DNA from: Salinibacter grassmerensis
Lineage (GTDB): Bacteria > Bacteroidota > Rhodothermia > Rhodothermales > Salinibacteraceae
Direction: 5' to 3'
NCBI RefSeq assembly: GCF_947077765.1
Contig: NZ_CAMTTF010000002.1
Location: 310,001-374,000, forward strand
Length of the DNA stretch: 64,000 nt
Both the position numbers and the translations under genes were made by a program. Below the pieces are notes generated by a model. The model was not told the DNA's origin. It ran no database searches and was given only the letters and a program-made list of their open reading frames with translations. Shown here piece by piece: positions 54,835-64,000 of the stretch; position 1 is the stretch's first letter, and each line of letters starts with the position of its first letter.

Positions 54835-57800
54835 ATGGATACAACGGTACAAAGGAAAGGTTCTGCGGCGCGCTCATGGACATCGATCCTGGGCGCTGCC
54901 CTCATGCTTTTTGTCGCTGCGTCGTTCTTTGCTGGGGCGGCGCTCGGTCAGGGAGCCGACCCCCCGGATACGTCTCTCGAGCAGGAGGGGGAAGGCACCT
55001 GGCACGATGATGTGCTTCGCATTAAGGTGGCCCCGGATGTCGCCAACCAGGCGACGCCCATGAAGCAGAATGGGGTTGCGATGCTTGGGGTCGAATCGAT
55101 TGACGCGCTCAATCAAGAGTTCGACGCCGTCTCGGTTGAGCCCCTGTTTGACGTTGGGGGCGAGTACGAAGAGCGCCACCGCGAATACGGGCTTCATCGG
55201 TGGTACGAAATTCGCCTCGCCGACGGAAAGGCGTCGGCGGACACGGAGGTGGAGGCGGCCACGAGTGCCTACTCGAACGCATCGGCTGTCTCTGTCGCCG
55301 AAGGGAAGGCCCGAACCCAGCAGCACGTCGTCGAGGACCCGCGGGCGTCGATTGCGCCGCTGCTCGACCCCCTGCCCGGCACGCCCGACGATCCGCTATA
55401 CGGAGACCAGTATGGGTTCCAAAACATCGAGGCGGAAGGGGGGTGGTCGACCCGAACTGGGGACACCACCGTTGTCGTGAGCATCCACGACTCCGGAATC
55501 AGCGGGAGCTTCGATGGGACCGAGACAACTGTCAACCATCCAGACCTTGAGCCAAATGTCTGGTACGGTGGAGATCCGAGCGACGGGAGCGTTCACGGGA
55601 AGAATTTCGGGGGTGGAGACCCGGCGGACCTTACTGACAACAACGGCCACGGGACGCACGTCACCGGAACAGTTGCTGCCCTCACCAACAATTCCTTCGG
55701 CGTGGCGGGCACCGCGGGGGGGAACGGAGAGTTTGCGAACGGTCGCGGTACCGGTGTTCGATACATGGTGACCACGCCAATCGGGGAAGAAGACTCCTAC
55801 GTGTATGCTGCCGATAACGGGGCGGTCATCTCACAGAACAGTTGGGGTTACACGAGTCCGGGGGTCTTCCCGCAGGCTCTGCAGGATGCCATTGACTACT
55901 TCATCGACAACGGAGGGGGCGATCATCTCGATGGGGGCATTGTCGTGTTCTCCGCCGGAAACGACGCCGACAATGGGGACTGGTTCCCGGCGGCGTACGA
56001 CCCAATCGTTTCGGTGGCCTCCACCGATCAAGGCGACAACGTGTCCACGTTCTCAAACTACGGGGAATGGGTCGACATTGCCGCGCCCGGCACTGGGATC
56101 CTGAGCACCTGGATCGCGGGGCAGGGAAACGTCGAGGATAACTTCCAATTTCTGAGTGGGACCTCGATGGCCTCTCCGCACGTCTCGGGTGCTGCCGCAC
56201 TAGTGGTGTCCGAGTTCTCGGATGTCAGTAGCCCCGATCAGGTGGAGTCGATCCTGGAGGAGTCCGCCGACGACGTTGGGGCGACACTCGACATTGGGGC
56301 CGGTCGCCTGAACCTGGCCCAGGCGCTGCAAGAGGACGACGGTAACGCGCCGGCGGCGATTACTGATCTGTCGGTGAACGACGTAGCGTCGGCGCATGTC
56401 GATCTGCAGTGGACCGTTCCGGATGGAGAGCCGACAGTCTACGACATTCGCTACTCCACCGACCCAATCGAGAACGATCAGGACTTCCAGAGTGCCACGC
56501 AGGTGGCCGATCCTCCGTCTCCGTCTGCCCCGGGTGAAACCGACGCCGCAACAGTCGAAGGCCTAACGCCGGGTACGGAGTACTTCTTCGCAATCAAGTC
56601 GTCGGACACGTTCGGCAACACGTCCGACCTGTCCAACGTGACGTCCGCGACCACCGAGAATGCGCCGGCGATTGCTGTGAATCCGGAGTCGGTGTCCCAG
56701 ACGCTCAGCACAGGCGAGTCCGGCTCTGACAACTTTGCGATTTCAAACGTCGGAGAGGACACACTTTCGTTCGCCCTACAGGCCGGCACGGGTGGATCTG
56801 ACATCGCCGATCCGATCGGCGAGCCAACGCAGCTTCGCAGCTTGACCGGTGCGCTTCCAGAGCGCCTCGAGCAGATGGAGGCGAACCAGCCACAAGACCG
56901 CTTCTCGTCGAGTGAGACCACCTACAAGGCCGAGCAAGGAGCTGTGCAACAGCAATCCGTTGAGGTCGAAGGGCGGCCTCTTGCCAAGCTTCTCGATGAG
57001 GTGGGAACGACCGGATTCGGAAATGACATCTTCAACTCGGAGTTCGAAATCTACTCCTTTGATCTCGGCGTTCCCTCTGACCTCACACTGGTGGACGATG
57101 GCGTGGACTCGTACGCCGGAAACTTCATTCAAGGGAATAACGAGGAACTCTACTGGATCGACAACGCGGACAATAACCTGAAGACGTATGCCCTCGACGA
57201 CGGCACCGTCGAGACGATTGGGGAACTGAACCCGCAGTCCAGCGATCCGGGATGGACCGATCTAGAGACAGATTACTCTACCGGAACGACGTACGTCACG
57301 ACCACCGATGCGCTTTACGAGCTCGATCCCCAGAACGCAGAGCTGACGCTCGTCGGTGAATTTTCCGGAGGCCTATTGCCTGTTGCCTTCGCGGTTGACG
57401 ATGAGGGGCAAGGATACCTCCATGACATCAGTGGTGACAACATCCTGACGGTTGATCTGCAGACGGCAGAGACGGAGGTGCTCGGGTCCACGGGCATCGA
57501 CGCCAACTATGCCCAGAGCATGACCTACGACCACGCGACCGACCAGTTGCTCATGGCGGCCTACAAGGGCTCCACGGCGTCCGTCCCGGCCGAACTCCGA
57601 GAGGTGAATATGGAGACCGGCAACACGGAGCTTATTGCTCCGATCGGGCCGGAAGGCGAGGCCAACGAGCTTGGATGGTTCGCCACGCCGGGGCCGAGCT
57701 TTCAGTGGTTGACGGCCGCGCCGACCGAAGGCGAGGTCGCCGCCGGGGAGCCCGGAGAGGACATTACGCTCACCTTCGAGACGGTCGCGGACGATGAAGA

Positions 57801-60800
57801 CGCGAACGATCTCATCGGGGGGCTTGCGTATTCCGGAAGTGTCCAGATCGAGAGCAACGATCCGGGCACGCCGGTGGAGGAGGTCCCGGTCACGCTAACC
57901 GTGGAGGGGAATCCGGCGATCTCCGTGGACGAGAGCCTCGGCTTCGGTGAGGTCTTTGCCGGCACGACGGGACGGGACACGCTGACCGTCACGAACACAA
58001 GTGACGACGCCATCCTACAGGTGGCCTCCATCGATCTCGCCGGGGACGATACCCCGTTCTCGGTGGCGGACGCTTCCCCATTCGTCCTCAACCCCGGACA
58101 GAGCGGAAGCATTCCCCTCACGTTCGAGCCGACGGAGAACGGCTCGTTCGAGACGACCCTTTCATTCGAGAACTCGGCGACCGGCACGCAGGAGGTCACG
58201 ATCACTGGTCAAGGGTCGCCGTTCGTCTCGATTGAGCCGAGCTCACTGGAGCAGGAGATCGACCTGACGTCCGGCGACTCCACGGCGACGCAGACGTTTA
58301 CGATCACCAACGAGTTCAGTGAGAGCCTTCCGTTCTCGGTGGTCGTTGAAGCCCTCGAGGGCGGAGGGGCCATGGACCTCACGCCGAAGTTGGCGGACAA
58401 GGAGCTCCGGCGCTGGCGCCAGCTGCAGCAGACACCCGCGCAGTTGAACTCGGACGCGGAGCCCGCAGAGCCGTCGCTGGGGCCGTCGCCCGACGATGGA
58501 GCGACGACGAGCTCCGCCGCAGCGCGCCTTCTGGATGGCACCCAGGTGCTGGACGAAACCGGCGTGACGGCCTACGGCGCGGAGGTGATTGCCCCCGAAC
58601 TCGTGGCCTTCGATACGGGGCTGCCGGGCGAGTTCACGGTCGTCGATGAGGGCGTGGACTCGTACGCCGGGAACTTTACATTCGGCAACAATGAGGAGGT
58701 GTACTGGATCGACAACACGGATAACACCCTCAAGACGTACGCCCTTGAGGATGGGTCTGTCGAAACGATCGGTGAGCTCAATCCGGAGGGATCGGATGTA
58801 ACCTGGTCGGACATGGAGACCGATCCGACGGACGGCACGACATACGTGACCGCAGGCGAAGGCAACACCAACCGGCTCTATGAGCTAGACGTGGAGAACG
58901 CCGAGCTCGACCTGGTCGGAGAGTACGCGAGCGGAAACCTCGTTGTGGCCCTTGCGATCGACGGCGAAGGAAACGCCTACGCCCACGAGATCTCCAACGA
59001 CGAGATTCTGAGTATCGATCTCGAGACGGCCGAGACGGAGGTTGTTGGTCCCACGGGCATCGATGCCAACTTTGCCCAGAGCATGACTTACGATGCGGAG
59101 ACGGGCCAGGTCCTCATGGCGGCCCTTCACAACTGTAGCTTCATTGGCTGTAGTGATGGGACGCTCCGCCAGGTGGACCGCGAGACCGGCAACACGACGC
59201 TGATCGGATCCTTCCCGGAAGGCGGGAACGATGAACTTGGCTGGATGGCTACGCCGGGCCAGGGCATCCCGTGGCTCGCGACGAACCTGGAGCAGGGCAC
59301 GGTCCCGGCCGGCGCCACGCTGCAGCTAGAGGCGCAGTACGATGCTACGCAGGTCGAAGAGGGCGACTACGAGGGCCAAATCAGCATCGTCGGCGACGAG
59401 TTGCAGGGTGAGCCCAGTGAGTCGGTTCCTGTAAACCTCTCGGTGGAGGCGGCACCGGTGGCGTTCGTCTCAAAGGACTCGCTTGGATACGGTCAGCTCT
59501 TCGAGCAGGATACGTCGAGTACGCAAATGGTTACGCTCCGAAACGATGGGGCAGCCGATATGACGATTACCGACGTGTCCATTGATTCAGAGAACTTCTT
59601 CTTCGATGGAGAGAGCGAGTTCACGCTCAAGCCGGGCGACGCGAGGATCTTCGACGTCGCCTTCACCCCGCAGAGTGTCGGGGAATTCTCGGCCACCATG
59701 TCCATCACTGGAGAAGAGGTGTCGGGAGAGGTCACTTTGACCGGAGAGGGCACCCCGGCGCCCGAATTGGCGCTTGCGCCCACAAGCTTCGAGAAGCAGG
59801 CCTACGTCGGCCAGACGCAGGACGAGGCCGTGGAGGTGACCAACACGGGTGGAAACCCGCTGGAATACGACCTCTCGGTCCTGCCGTCGAGTCCGCCGAT
59901 TCAGCAGCTGCTCGTCGAAGAAGGGTTTGGCGGTGAGGAATTCCCGCCGGGAGACTGGTTCCGCGCCGGTGCCAACGGCGGCCAGAACTGGACGACGGTC
60001 GGTGAAGGGTGCTCCTTCTACTTCGATGATCCGCAGCAGGCGTGCTTCTACTGGTCCCCCTCTACCGAGGGCACACAGCGCCTGATCACGCCTCAGATCA
60101 ACACGGAGGACGTTGCACAGGTGTTCGTCCAGTTCTCCCACATCATTGATGCCTTCAGCGCGGGCGAGTTCACAGTCCGTCTGGAGACGACCGGGGACGG
60201 TGGTGAGAGCTGGACCACGGTGGCCGAATTCCCAGCCCAGGATGTCGGCCCGATCGACGAATCGTTCGCAATCACCAATGAGGACGTGGGCTCCGACGAG
60301 TTCCACGTGGCCTGGACGTTCGAGGGGGACTCCTTCAACATCAATGGTTGGGCCGTCGATGATGTGCAGGTGTTCGCTGGAGGCGAGTGGTTGGCTGTCG
60401 ATCAGACGTCCGGGACCATTGCGCCGAGCGAGTCGGACACCCTCAACCTGACCGTCGACACGAACGTGCCCGGCATCCAAGAGGAGACGTATCAGTCCGG
60501 CCTCGGCTTCGTGACCAATGCGCCGCTCGCGGAGACCGCGGAGCTGCCGTTTACGCTGAGTGTCATCGAGGCCCTCTCCGTCACCGCCGAGCACTCTGAG
60601 GGCGACGGGGAGGTGTACCCGAACGAAGAGTTCACGCTGGACATGAACGCCGAGAGCCTCGACGACTTGGAGGTCTTCTCCTACCAGATGGAAATGGGCT
60701 TCAACACCGACCGCATGCAGGTCCAAGAGGTGACGACTGAGGGCACGCTCAGCGAAGGCCTTACCCTCACTTCGAACATCGACAACGAGGCGGGCGTCGT

Positions 60801-61962
60801 GACCATCGCCGCGGCCGACGACGGGCTGAATAGCAGCAGCACCGGGAGCGGTGAGTCCGACGGCGACGATGGAGCCGCTCTCTTCGACATCGAAGGCGAG
60901 GGCGTCCTCGTCTCGATCGAGGCGACTGGCCAGCCCGACCACGGAGAAATGGTCATGGACATGCAGAACATGGTGTTCAATGAAGGACAGCCGCCGGCCA
61001 CCGCGGTAAACGACACCATGGAGGTCATCCCACTCTACGGCGACACTGACCTCAACCTTGGAATCGGCGCCGGAGACGCAGGAGATGCTCTCGACTTCGT
61101 GGTTGGATCTACCGACCTCATCGAGGCGCAGCAGACGCACGCCGACGTTTCGGGGGACGATGAAGTCAGTGCCTTCGACGCGTCCCTGATCCTGCAGCGC
61201 ACGGTGGGAGGCATCTCTTGCTTCCCGGTCGAATCCGGCTGTGAGGAAGCGACAGAGGCGCTGGCTGCGACCTCGAAGGCGTCCGGCGACGCAAACACGT
61301 CCTTTGCCTGGGGCGAAGTGACCGAGCCGAAACAGGCCACCAGCGCTGAGAGCAAGAAGATGCAGCTGCCGCTGGTTCTCAACCAGTCCAGTCAGTCGGT
61401 GCAGGCCATCGACGTAACCACGAAGATTGATCCGGACAAGGTTGCCGTGAACGACATGACGGCCCAGCTTCCGGATGACTGGCGGGCGGTCCACCACGTG
61501 TCCGACGACGGGACCCTGAAGATCTCGATGGCGGGCACCACGCCGATCTCCAACGCTGGAAAGGTTGCGACCCTTACGCTGAAGCGGGAGGATTCCGACG
61601 CAACCCTGGAGATGGGTGGCAACGTGACCGTCAACGAAGGTGGCGTCCAGAAGCTCGAGACCAAGTCCATCGTGTCTATTCCGGACGAGTTTGCTCTGGA
61701 GGGGGCCTACCCGAACCCCTTCCGGCAGACCGCGACGCTGGAGATGGACCTACCCCAGAAGGCGAATGTGACCGTCGAGGTCTACGACCTGCTGGGCCGC
61801 AAGGTGCAGACTGCGCACCGTGGCGAGATGTCGGCTGGATCGGGCCGTACGGTCCGAATCAGCGGCTCTGATCTCTCTTCGGGCACGTACTTCTATCGCG
61901 CCCGGGTGGAGATGGACGAGAATCGCGTCACCGAGACCGGGAAAATGACGGTTGTCCGGTAG
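54835..61962 (+). CDS. Giant secreted subtilisin with cohesin- and dockerin-like parts
   Basis: A 2375-residue protein. The ATG at 54835 gives a signal peptide. An inhibitor-like propeptide leads to an S8 domain with Asp219 (SIHDSG), His272 (GHGTHVTG) and Ser444 (SGTSMASPH). A fibronectin-III-like domain (about 505-600) is followed by two copies of a module (about 740-960 and 1257-1480). Each has a propeller-like DSYAGNF...EELYWIDN part, which is followed by a beta-sandwich of choice-of-anchor type (SLGFGEVFAGTTGRDTLTV). A lectin-like domain, a cohesin-like domain (about 1913-2065) and a dockerin-like pair of Asp-rich loops (GDTDLNLG, ADVSGDDEVSAFDA; about 2069-2126) come next. The end (about 2286-2375) is a type-IX-like sorting domain: GAYPNPFRQTATLEMDL, VEVYDLLGRKVQ, SSGTYFYRARV. 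It is probably surface-bound or released. Confidence 0.88.
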   Translation: MDTTVQRKGSAARSWTSILGAALMLFVAASFFAGAALGQGADPPDTSLEQEGEGTWHDDVLRIKVAPDVANQATPMKQNGVAMLGVESIDALNQEFDAVSVEPLFDVGGEYEERHREYGLHRWYEIRLADGKASADTEVEAATSAYSNASAVSVAEGKARTQQHVVEDPRASIAPLLDPLPGTPDDPLYGDQYGFQNIEAEGGWSTRTGDTTVVVSIHDSGISGSFDGTETTVNHPDLEPNVWYGGDPSDGSVHGKNFGGGDPADLTDNNGHGTHVTGTVAALTNNSFGVAGTAGGNGEFANGRGTGVRYMVTTPIGEEDSYVYAADNGAVISQNSWGYTSPGVFPQALQDAIDYFIDNGGGDHLDGGIVVFSAGNDADNGDWFPAAYDPIVSVASTDQGDNVSTFSNYGEWVDIAAPGTGILSTWIAGQGNVEDNFQFLSGTSMASPHVSGAAALVVSEFSDVSSPDQVESILEESADDVGATLDIGAGRLNLAQALQEDDGNAPAAITDLSVNDVASAHVDLQWTVPDGEPTVYDIRYSTDPIENDQDFQSATQVADPPSPSAPGETDAATVEGLTPGTEYFFAIKSSDTFGNTSDLSNVTSATTENAPAIAVNPESVSQTLSTGESGSDNFAISNVGEDTLSFALQAGTGGSDIADPIGEPTQLRSLTGALPERLEQMEANQPQDRFSSSETTYKAEQGAVQQQSVEVEGRPLAKLLDEVGTTGFGNDIFNSEFEIYSFDLGVPSDLTLVDDGVDSYAGNFIQGNNEELYWIDNADNNLKTYALDDGTVETIGELNPQSSDPGWTDLETDYSTGTTYVTTTDALYELDPQNAELTLVGEFSGGLLPVAFAVDDEGQGYLHDISGDNILTVDLQTAETEVLGSTGIDANYAQSMTYDHATDQLLMAAYKGSTASVPAELREVNMETGNTELIAPIGPEGEANELGWFATPGPSFQWLTAAPTEGEVAAGEPGEDITLTFETVADDEDANDLIGGLAYSGSVQIESNDPGTPVEEVPVTLTVEGNPAISVDESLGFGEVFAGTTGRDTLTVTNTSDDAILQVASIDLAGDDTPFSVADASPFVLNPGQSGSIPLTFEPTENGSFETTLSFENSATGTQEVTITGQGSPFVSIEPSSLEQEIDLTSGDSTATQTFTITNEFSESLPFSVVVEALEGGGAMDLTPKLADKELRRWRQLQQTPAQLNSDAEPAEPSLGPSPDDGATTSSAAARLLDGTQVLDETGVTAYGAEVIAPELVAFDTGLPGEFTVVDEGVDSYAGNFTFGNNEEVYWIDNTDNTLKTYALEDGSVETIGELNPEGSDVTWSDMETDPTDGTTYVTAGEGNTNRLYELDVENAELDLVGEYASGNLVVALAIDGEGNAYAHEISNDEILSIDLETAETEVVGPTGIDANFAQSMTYDAETGQVLMAALHNCSFIGCSDGTLRQVDRETGNTTLIGSFPEGGNDELGWMATPGQGIPWLATNLEQGTVPAGATLQLEAQYDATQVEEGDYEGQISIVGDELQGEPSESVPVNLSVEAAPVAFVSKDSLGYGQLFEQDTSSTQMVTLRNDGAADMTITDVSIDSENFFFDGESEFTLKPGDARIFDVAFTPQSVGEFSATMSITGEEVSGEVTLTGEGTPAPELALAPTSFEKQAYVGQTQDEAVEVTNTGGNPLEYDLSVLPSSPPIQQLLVEEGFGGEEFPPGDWFRAGANGGQNWTTVGEGCSFYFDDPQQACFYWSPSTEGTQRLITPQINTEDVAQVFVQFSHIIDAFSAGEFTVRLETTGDGGESWTTVAEFPAQDVGPIDESFAITNEDVGSDEFHVAWTFEGDSFNINGWAVDDVQVFAGGEWLAVDQTSGTIAPSESDTLNLTVDTNVPGIQEETYQSGLGFVTNAPLAETAELPFTLSVIEALSVTAEHSEGDGEVYPNEEFTLDMNAESLDDLEVFSYQMEMGFNTDRMQVQEVTTEGTLSEGLTLTSNIDNEAGVVTIAAADDGLNSSSTGSGESDGDDGAALFDIEGEGVLVSIEATGQPDHGEMVMDMQNMVFNEGQPPATAVNDTMEVIPLYGDTDLNLGIGAGDAGDALDFVVGSTDLIEAQQTHADVSGDDEVSAFDASLILQRTVGGISCFPVESGCEEATEALAATSKASGDANTSFAWGEVTEPKQATSAESKKMQLPLVLNQSSQSVQAIDVTTKIDPDKVAVNDMTAQLPDDWRAVHHVSDDGTLKISMAGTTPISNAGKVATLTLKREDSDATLEMGGNVTVNEGGVQKLETKSIVSIPDEFALEGAYPNPFRQTATLEMDLPQKANVTVEVYDLLGRKVQTAHRGEMSAGSGRTVRISGSDLSSGTYFYRARVEMDENRVTETGKMTVVR
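57055..59270 (+). repeat. Two diverged copies of one module inside the protease gene
   Basis: Copy one is around 57055-57690 and copy two around 58605-59255, offset 1551 bases (517 codons, in frame). An exact 20-base match sits in both at 57100-57119 and 58651-58670. The remaining sequence is diverged at DNA level but clear in protein, so the duplication is old. Confidence 0.85.
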
Positions 61963-61974
61963 TCGCGGCGCGCT

Positions 61975-62052
61975 CCCCTAAGACGGGATCTCCTTAAGAT
62001 GATCAAGGGGTTCGAGGAGTTCATCTCCTCGAACCCCTTTGGTCCTTAGGGG
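61975..62052 (+). terminator. Large nested hairpin after the protease gene
   Basis: A perfect 15-base stem (62005-62019 with 62025-62039, five-base loop) is enclosed by an outer pair CCCCTAAG (61975-61982) and CTTAGGGG (62045-62052). Only short T-runs follow, so it may be a terminator or a processing structure. Confidence 0.65.
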
Positions 62053-62088
62053 CAAGATCGCTGTAATTGTACTCAGCCTTCATCCTTC

Positions 62089-63777
62089 ATGATCACGATG
62101 AGCGACCGATTCCTGATCGCGCCACTGGGTTTGATCCTCGTCTTCCTCGCCGGGATCGCGCCTTTACAGTCATGGGCACAGTCAGGCATTTCTGTGACCG
62201 TTCCTGAGGTGAATCCAGCTCCGGGGCAGGTTACCACTCTCAGCATTGAGGCGGATCTTGACGGAAAGAGTGTGGAAGAATACTCGAACATGAAGTTTGC
62301 ATTTGATGATGATGTACTCGAAATAGAAGAGGTTGAAGATGGTCGTGAACTTAGTTTTGGGTCAAGTAATCTTACAGCCAACAATTCTAAGGAGGATACT
62401 CTACGGGTCTCAAACGTATCAAGCGGATCAGTGTCGGGAAGTGGAGAATTTCTTCAGGTAGACGTAAAGCTAAAAACTGGTTCTCAAAGTCCAGGAACTT
62501 TTTTCAGGCTTACTCCGAGTGTGAAAGAGATAGGAGAGCCCTTTGTGGGCACATTCGGAGAGGCGGGTTCTGGGTCGGTGTTTGAAGTTGAGACCATCGA
62601 TCAGGGGAAAGTCGGCGATCTTACGGTTCAGAATGGTCGTCAGGAAGGATTCGGCAACACGGCGACGGTGACGGGCACCGTCACGCGAGCGTATGGCTCG
62701 TACGTGCGATTTCAGGACGACACCGGTCCTACGGGGGTAAGCGGTTTGACCGTCGGTCCCGTGAGCGGGGACATTCAACAGGACATTGCCGACGGCAACA
62801 TCGAGAAGGGGACTCGGCTTTACGTGCGAGGAACGCTCTCGGACACCGACGAGCTCCTTCGAATCGATAACACGGGCCTTGAAAACTACGTCATTCTGGA
62901 CCAGGGGATACTGCCGGCTCCTCAAGAGGTCTCCCTGAGCACACTGCAGTCCGGCGGTGAAGACTACGAAAGCGAACTCCTTCGTGTGGACGGACTCTCA
63001 TTCTCAAACACGAGCGGGACGTTCAATGCGAACACGACGTACACGGTTGGAGACGAGACCGCGAGCCTCAACTACCGCGTCGAGTCGAGCAATCAGACTG
63101 AGCTCATGGGCGAGCCCATCCCCATCGGGACGTTTACCTATGAGGGCGTGCTTGGAGAGTCGGGCACGGAATACCAGTTGGTTCCTATTCGCCCGGCGAC
63201 GGCCTTACCCGTCGACTTGACGCGCCTCACGGCGGTCCAGAGTGAGGAGGTTGTGGTGCTGACCTGGCGGACCGCCAGCGAAACCAACAATGCGGGTTTC
63301 CGCGTCCAGTACGAGCAGAACGCCGGCTGGCAAGAGCTCGGTTTCGTCTCGAGCAAGGTGGAGGACGGGACCACCGGTGAGGCCCAGTCCTATCGCTTTA
63401 CGGTCGACCGACGGCTCGGGCCGGGCACCCATCGCTTTCGGCTCGAGCAGGTCGACCTCGACCGGACGACAGCCCTCAGCGATACGGTGCAGGTGGAGGT
63501 TGGCATGGACGGGGCGCTGCACCTGAGCGCGCCGGCCCCGAACCCGGCGTCCACCCGGGCGACTCTTTCCTTTGCGGTGCAGGAGAGGACGAGGGCGGAA
63601 GTCGCGATGTACAACGTGCTGGGTCAACGGGTGCGGACCCTGTACGAGGGACGGCCGCCAGGAGAAGAGGGGCGACGGCTGACGGTGGAGACGGAGACGT
63701 TGTCCAGCGGAGTATACGTGGTGCGGCTCCGGGCCGGGGGGCGGACGAAGACCCGGCGTCTTACCGTCGTGCGGTAG
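62089..63777 (+). CDS. Secreted cohesin-like protein with type-IX-type sorting domain
   Basis: A 562-residue protein. The signal peptide ends QSWAQ. A cohesin-like beta-sandwich (about 33-165) has ISVTVPEVNPAPGQVTTLSI and later KFAFDDDVLEIEEVEDG. Two OB-like or DUF5689-like modules (about 190-375) and a fibronectin-like strand set (TAVQSEEVVVLTWRTASETN) follow. The end is the same type of sorting domain as the protease: SAPAPNPASTRATLSF, VAMYNVLGQRVRTLYEG, LSSGVYVVRLRAG. DNA of the cohesin-like part is AT-rich (21 of 60 bases GC at 62281-62340 against 40 of 60 at 62641-62700), suggesting a different origin. It lies 126 bases after the protease; binding to the latter's dockerin-like part is possible but untested. 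Confidence 0.8.
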   Translation: MITMSDRFLIAPLGLILVFLAGIAPLQSWAQSGISVTVPEVNPAPGQVTTLSIEADLDGKSVEEYSNMKFAFDDDVLEIEEVEDGRELSFGSSNLTANNSKEDTLRVSNVSSGSVSGSGEFLQVDVKLKTGSQSPGTFFRLTPSVKEIGEPFVGTFGEAGSGSVFEVETIDQGKVGDLTVQNGRQEGFGNTATVTGTVTRAYGSYVRFQDDTGPTGVSGLTVGPVSGDIQQDIADGNIEKGTRLYVRGTLSDTDELLRIDNTGLENYVILDQGILPAPQEVSLSTLQSGGEDYESELLRVDGLSFSNTSGTFNANTTYTVGDETASLNYRVESSNQTELMGEPIPIGTFTYEGVLGESGTEYQLVPIRPATALPVDLTRLTAVQSEEVVVLTWRTASETNNAGFRVQYEQNAGWQELGFVSSKVEDGTTGEAQSYRFTVDRRLGPGTHRFRLEQVDLDRTTALSDTVQVEVGMDGALHLSAPAPNPASTRATLSFAVQERTRAEVAMYNVLGQRVRTLYEGRPPGEEGRRLTVETETLSSGVYVVRLRAGGRTKTRRLTVVR

Positions 63778-63794: not shown

Positions 63795-64000
63795 CTACAC
63801 CTCTTCGCTGAACGACTCGCCCGCCGCCGATTCGTCGAGGGGGGGGAGGTCCGGGGCATCGGGATCGTCTTGAAGGCCCCGATGCCGGAGATCCCGACCC
63901 TCCACCATAAAGACGATGCTCTGGGCGATGTTCTTTGCGTGGTCGGAGATGCGCTCCAGTGCTTTGCTCACCGTTAGCAGGTGGGCAATGATCTCGGACT
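63795..64000 (-). CDS. phoU: Phosphate-transport regulator PhoU (3' part)
   Basis: The last 67 residues, running off the window edge. The C-terminal PhoU helix signature EIIAHLLTVSKALERISDHAK is followed by NIAQSIVFMVEGRDLRH and then an acidic tail ending ESFSEEV. PhoU restrains the Pst phosphate transporter and the PhoR kinase. The start and the pst genes are expected beyond position 64000. Confidence 0.9.
   Translation of the reverse strand, partial: SEIIAHLLTVSKALERISDHAKNIAQSIVFMVEGRDLRHRGLQDDPDAPDLPPLDESAAGESFSEEV

Follow-up and report, generated by a model that had tools for sequence, protein, structure and literature searches.

Cohesin and dockerin domains in two adjacent genes

Cohesin-dockerin pairs have mostly been treated as parts of cellulosomes, and a locus of Salinibacter grassmerensis raises the question whether an extreme halophile uses such a pair on proteins sorted by type IX secretion, with a protease as the enzyme. 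The locus lies in a window of 64,000 nucleotides (the whole stretch analysed; positions 310,001 to 374,000 of contig NZ_CAMTTF010000002.1, forward strand), to which all coordinates below refer. Two plus-strand genes are concerned, a subtilase gene open over 54835-61962 (2375 amino acids, aa) and a neighbour open over 62089-63777 (562 aa). A first-pass annotation, made from the sequence alone, had proposed that they encode a cohesin-dockerin pair in a salt-loving bacterium; the latter part agrees with the genus, as Salinibacter is halophilic. The reading that we favour, and hold to be slightly better than an even bet, is that the two genes encode a calcium-dependent, cell-surface cohesin-dockerin complex centred on the subtilase.

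The protease ends in a cohesin-dockerin-cohesin tail and a sorting domain of the type IX secretion system (T9SS), and a whole-length Pfam scan returned Peptidase_S8 (E 1e-38), Por_Secre_tail (E 3e-8) and Cohesin (E 7e-8, two stretches). Judged by the curated Pfam cut-off for cohesin (PF00963, 24.1 bits), all three cohesins of the locus pass when the domains are scanned alone: Coh1 of the protease (residues 1905-2055, 60547-60999) with 24.7 bits, Coh2 (residues 2140-2286, 61252-61692) with 25.8 bits, and the N-terminal cohesin of the neighbour (62173-62604) with 24.7 bits. The full-length neighbour gave Por_Secre_tail (E 2e-9) and Cohesin (E 2e-4, 21.9 bits vs the cut-off of 24.1), and a single-sequence search with it against the PDB found no match. 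In AlphaFold models built from family alignments (mean predicted local distance difference test 80 for the neighbour and 75 for the protease tail), the neighbour's cohesin superposed on 5nrk_A (Z 16.2, root-mean-square deviation (rmsd) 2.1 over 130 residues), with all 50 structural matches listed being cohesins and a Foldseek E of 6e-7, and Coh1 superposed on 6kgc_A (Z 16.1, rmsd 2.0 over 134 residues). Coh2 is assigned from Pfam, a two-cohesin Foldseek match and a beta-sandwich in the model. The closest solved structures to the window cohesins are type I cohesins. The cohesin-like domain that the first-pass annotation had seen in each protein is thus borne out, and Coh2, between the dockerin and the sorting domain, had been overlooked.

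Between the two cohesins of the protease lies a type I-like dockerin (60991-61239), identified from a phmmer match, a Pfam match below the cut-off and helices in the model. Its two Asp-rich calcium loops, which had also been noticed at first reading, are intact: DTDLNLGIGAGD (61042-61077) and DVSGDDEVSAFD (61144-61179) have 12 residues each, with Asp at positions 1 and 12 and a helix after each (model residues 175-186 and 209-219). Searched alone, the domain matched the solved Acetivibrio ScaB dockerin 4uyq_B over both loops (phmmer E 6e-5), and profiles of family members matched solved dockerins (E 3e-12) and solved cohesins (E 9e-10). The calcium loops are intact and conserved in the protease family, and the A-F-D-A motif of loop 2 is nearly constant over it; this position forms the recognition side in known dockerins. 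Profiles, sequence matches in the PDB and predicted folds all support the cohesin and dockerin identities, and the profile and structure comparison that had been proposed for the protease tail and the neighbour's N terminus thus favours both domain types.

The enzyme itself belongs to family S8, as the Asp-His-Ser motifs of subtilases are intact (HDSG with D219, NGHGTHV with H272, GTSMASP with S444) in a catalytic domain at residues 211-481 (55465-56277, Pfam E 1e-38). Both proteins carry export signals. A probable Sec signal peptide was seen by eye at protease residues 1-38 (54835-54948), and that of the neighbour was likewise seen by eye only. Type A T9SS sorting domains stand at 61708-61959, reaching the C terminus of the protease (TIGR04183 and PF18962), and at 63538-63768 in the neighbour (profile scans); TIGR04183 scored 37.1 and 37.6 bits for the two genes against a cut-off of 23, in agreement with the initial view that both end in the same type of domain. 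The genome encodes SprA, the type IX translocon (1696 bits vs 200), and a candidate PorU-like sortase that covers most of the sortase model (positions 8-768 and 965-1092) yet scores below its cut-off of 420, with 180.9 bits for the best piece. Genome-wide, 20 sorting-domain matches exceeded the cut-off, both window genes among them.

About 20 genes of this genome have sorting domains, yet cohesins are found on only two of them. In a scan of the whole genome (3.78 Mb), Coh1, Coh2 and the neighbour's cohesin were the only cohesin matches, and the only credible dockerin sits in the protease gene, so that all cohesins and the dockerin are in two adjacent genes. Another dockerin match in the same genome (C1:404193) was rejected from a reading of its protein as a probable TonB-dependent receptor with a look-alike calcium loop.

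Conservation and co-localisation of the gene pair

Comparison with related genomes, which the first-pass annotation had recommended, revealed that the dockerin-protease and the cohesin gene are kept together across Salinibacteraceae where the flank is sequenced (named relatives include S. altiplanensis, Salinivenus lutea and S. iranica). Protease relatives with the same tail of cohesin, dockerin, cohesin and C-terminal sorting domain occur in genomes G011-G015, G001, G004, G010, G024 and G026. An N-terminal-cohesin gene comes next on the same strand after the protease orthologue in G011-G015, G001 (contig C92), G004, G010 and G024; G001 C208 and G026 offer no downstream flank to judge, as their contigs stop behind the protease. 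In G012 and G013 the contig breaks off within the downstream gene, ahead of any sorting domain; the G024 neighbour has a weak cohesin (E 9e-4), and its gene was resolved short of the 3' end. Immediate adjacency is absent only in G024, whose contig C109 (1434-19999) holds three tandem subtilases with cohesin-dockerin-cohesin tails and then a single cohesin gene, so that just the last of these proteases has it as its neighbour.

The middle domain of the downstream gene differs by lineage, being DUF5689 in the closest species (in the window a weak DUF5689-like region, below the cut-off, at 62842-63186), DUF4397 in Salinivenus and a lamin-tail domain in other genera. Because the middle domains are swapped while the N-terminal cohesin is constant, the cohesin appears to be the part that is retained beside the dockerin. 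Elsewhere in the family, dockerin genes at G013 C2 and C38, G020 C123 and C192 and G024 C13 precede multi-cohesin proteins, and no cohesin was found nearby at two further family dockerin loci, G025 C283 and G023. At G024 C13, G013 C2 and G013 C38 the dockerin genes are beta-helix-like or FG-GAP-like and are followed directly by multi-cohesin proteins of ~1200-2500 aa, which are candidates for scaffoldin-like proteins.

Across the phylum, 296 genomes were scanned; dockerin matches were found in at least 49 genomes and cohesin matches in at least 62 (counts are of matches listed at E 1e-6, the chance expectation assumes a 4-Mb genome, and relatedness is ignored). Of the 98 dockerin matches listed, 24 have a cohesin at most 10 kb away in a neighbouring frame, where ~1.2 would be expected to have any cohesin within that distance. 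In equally many (24/98) a cohesin shares the reading frame of the dockerin, 40/98 have one of either kind, and 16/98 have a neighbouring-frame cohesin only. Among the matches listed, every neighbouring cohesin shares the strand of its dockerin, 37 of the 42 lying downstream and 5 upstream, and the gap between the genes is often below 100 bases. Dockerin and cohesin genes are co-localised ~20 times above chance across the phylum, and the order from dockerin to cohesin recurs in it. Right-handed beta-helix proteins with sorting domains, rather than proteases, make up many of the carriers of a dockerin that were examined, and most of those outside the family; further ones have CotH, DMFA2_C or BACON domains. 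The gene pair is thus a broader one, of which Salinibacteraceae have the protease version.

Candidate partners of the dockerin

In the favoured complex, both proteins would be exported via Sec and the type IX route and anchored on the outside of the cell through their sorting domains, as their domain content suggests. The protease dockerin, folded round two calcium ions, would bind the cohesin of the neighbour, the protease's own two cohesins would permit further contacts of the same kind, and the protease would thereby be held in a lateral complex or a small surface network, with a putative role in extracellular protein digestion or the processing of surface proteins. In this scheme we infer the cohesin that is bound, the dependence on calcium, the stoichiometry and the substrate. 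Because it persists beside the dockerin while the other domains of its gene are exchanged, the neighbour's cohesin is most likely the partner. The partner idea of the first-pass annotation is considerably, if indirectly, strengthened by the family-wide gene pair and the phylum-wide co-localisation.

Several points weigh against this reading. The partnership is predicted from gene content, and neither protein needs the other for anchoring because each has its own sorting domain. The window dockerin, scanned alone, scored 18.5 bits against the Pfam cut-off of 22.9 (PF00404), although orthologues from the same genus scored above it (25.0 in G014, 28.7 in G013 and 28.8 bits in G012). At the strict threshold, 58 of the 98 dockerin matches listed have no cohesin within 10 kb, and single cohesin genes with no dockerin nearby exist in the family, so that a cohesin fold alone does not imply a dockerin partner. 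The intergenic stem-loop is strong and may be a transcription terminator. Finally, the two cohesins carried in cis by the protease are possible true partners of its dockerin.

The last point leads to the most serious alternative, in which the dockerin acts in cis or homotypically by packing against one of the two protease cohesins, in its own chain or in another protease molecule, giving a rigid stalk or a head-to-tail polymer, while the neighbour's cohesin has another role. Coh1, dockerin and Coh2 share one chain in the family orthologues, and same-frame cohesins are as frequent as neighbouring-frame ones among the dockerin matches listed, both of which fit this account; the 16 matches with a neighbouring-frame cohesin only do not, and neither does the retention of the neighbour's cohesin while its other domains change. 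The model of the tail leaves cis packing undecided because its linkers have low confidence (predicted template modelling score 0.57). We think the cis or homotypic arrangement somewhat unlikely, and binding in cis and in trans may also occur together, giving a network.

A second alternative takes the cohesins and the dockerin as structural beta-sandwich and calcium modules of surface stalks that do not recognise each other, with the adjacency arising from the clustering of surface genes. Both proteins are rich in Ig-like modules, lone cohesin genes occur in Salinibacteraceae, and cohesin-like domains are present in other proteins such as TMEM132 (PMC6030884). We judge it improbable in the face of co-localisation that is far above chance and strictly same-strand, of calcium loops that are intact and conserved, and of a genome in which just these two of ~20 sorting-domain genes have cohesins. 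A cellulosome-type complex, with a scaffoldin recruiting several enzymes, would use the same domain types and has an echo in the multi-cohesin partners of relatives, but it is very improbable here and is rejected by the genome-wide counts, which give one credible dockerin enzyme and three cohesins, none of them in a multi-cohesin scaffoldin.

Beyond the favoured two-gene complex, the phylum-wide pattern allows a more tentative idea, which we would not expect to hold in full: a widespread, overlooked, type-IX-exported assembly system, in which a dockerin cargo gene (a beta-helix protein in most lineages examined, a subtilase in Salinibacteraceae) is followed by its own cohesin gene, both products being anchored at the surface in lateral outer-membrane cohesin-dockerin lattices, possibly with a ratio-setting intergenic stem-loop as in the cip-cel operon. 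If the binding is real, the pair would illustrate how surface complexes of several proteins are assembled by type IX secretion, and protein engineers would gain an orthogonal pair of binders that tolerates salt.

Comparison with known systems

The first-pass annotation had suspected a complex not described in this group. In the literature searched, no account of cohesin-dockerin pairs from Rhodothermota came to light, which is weak evidence of absence, and to that extent the suspicion stands; a similar system, however, with dockerin-bearing S8 and C25 peptidases and a sorting-domain scaffoldin, has been inferred from genomes of Candidatus Stygibacter, of the Cloacimonadota (PMC8542988). The likeness consists in a secreted S8 peptidase with a C-terminal dockerin and a cohesin protein with a C-terminal surface-attachment domain. 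Candidatus Stygibacter, however, has a 3755-aa scaffoldin with tandem cohesins and carbohydrate-binding modules and several enzymes (PMC8542988), whereas in Salinibacter a lone protease, itself bearing cohesins, stands beside a small neighbour with a single cohesin.

Binding between cohesin and dockerin without a cellulosome has been verified in archaea (PMC9012536). Archaeoglobus fulgidus resembles the present genome in having few cohesins and dockerins and no cellulosome, and its cohesin 2xdh matched the window models with Z 14.1 (neighbour) and 13.8 (Coh1); it differs in being archaeal, with no type IX sorting and no protease attached. Its AF2375 presumably combines a cohesin and a dockerin and lies beside the cohesin gene AF2376. 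The clostridial cellulosome (type I) shares the cohesin and dockerin folds, but the Salinibacter genome has no scaffoldin, its enzyme is a protease, and T9SS sorting to the outer membrane takes the place of S-layer homology (SLH) domains or sortase.

Subtilases fused to a dockerin were listed in 2008 for Halobacterium (NP_280653) and another genome (NP_691157), and a Salinibacter subtilase in the same list had fn3 only (PMC2605481). The two fusions are like the window protease in this respect, but no cohesin or neighbouring cohesin gene was reported for them in that paper. The amylosome of Ruminococcus bromii (PMC9112005) and the mucinolysome of Limousia (PMC12997984) are cohesin-dockerin complexes for polymers other than cellulose; they differ in belonging to gut bacteria and in having many enzymes and glycan substrates.

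Other features of the locus

The intergenic stem-loop (62005-62039, plus strand) has 15 perfect pairs. Five other species keep every pair, with three pairs changed on both sides (compensatory), and strong hairpins stand at the equivalent place in G001 and G004 (loci L072 and L073). It forms the most stable 3' flank among the 33 window genes. A search for a U-tract terminator was negative at this stem-loop, and no Rfam family matched it. Stem-loops of this kind govern the proportions of the subunits in the cip-cel operon of clostridia (PMC4423207, PMC10311766), and by analogy the present one may be a ratio-setting element, or it may be an ordinary terminator; we claim no special role for it, because other window genes also carry strong 3' hairpins.

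Upstream of its tail, the protease has a Peptidase_S8_N-like propeptide region (residues 60-197, 55012-55425, Pfam E 8e-17), a fibronectin type III (fn3) domain (residues 508-602, 56356-56640, Pfam E 2e-8), an ASH/HYDIN (choice-of-anchor D) Ig-like domain (residues 1027-1126, 57913-58212) and a second DUF1573/ASH-like Ig domain (residues 1547-1639, 59473-59751), the last two from profile scans. Its long middle region contains two similar propeller-like stretches, at 56749-57990 and a matching later stretch, and DUF4394 matches one of them weakly, below the cut-off. Downstream of the neighbour, a minus-strand gene (63798-64000) is convergent with it; its end reads like PhoU, judged by motif, and the adjacent gene in locus L066 reads like PstA.

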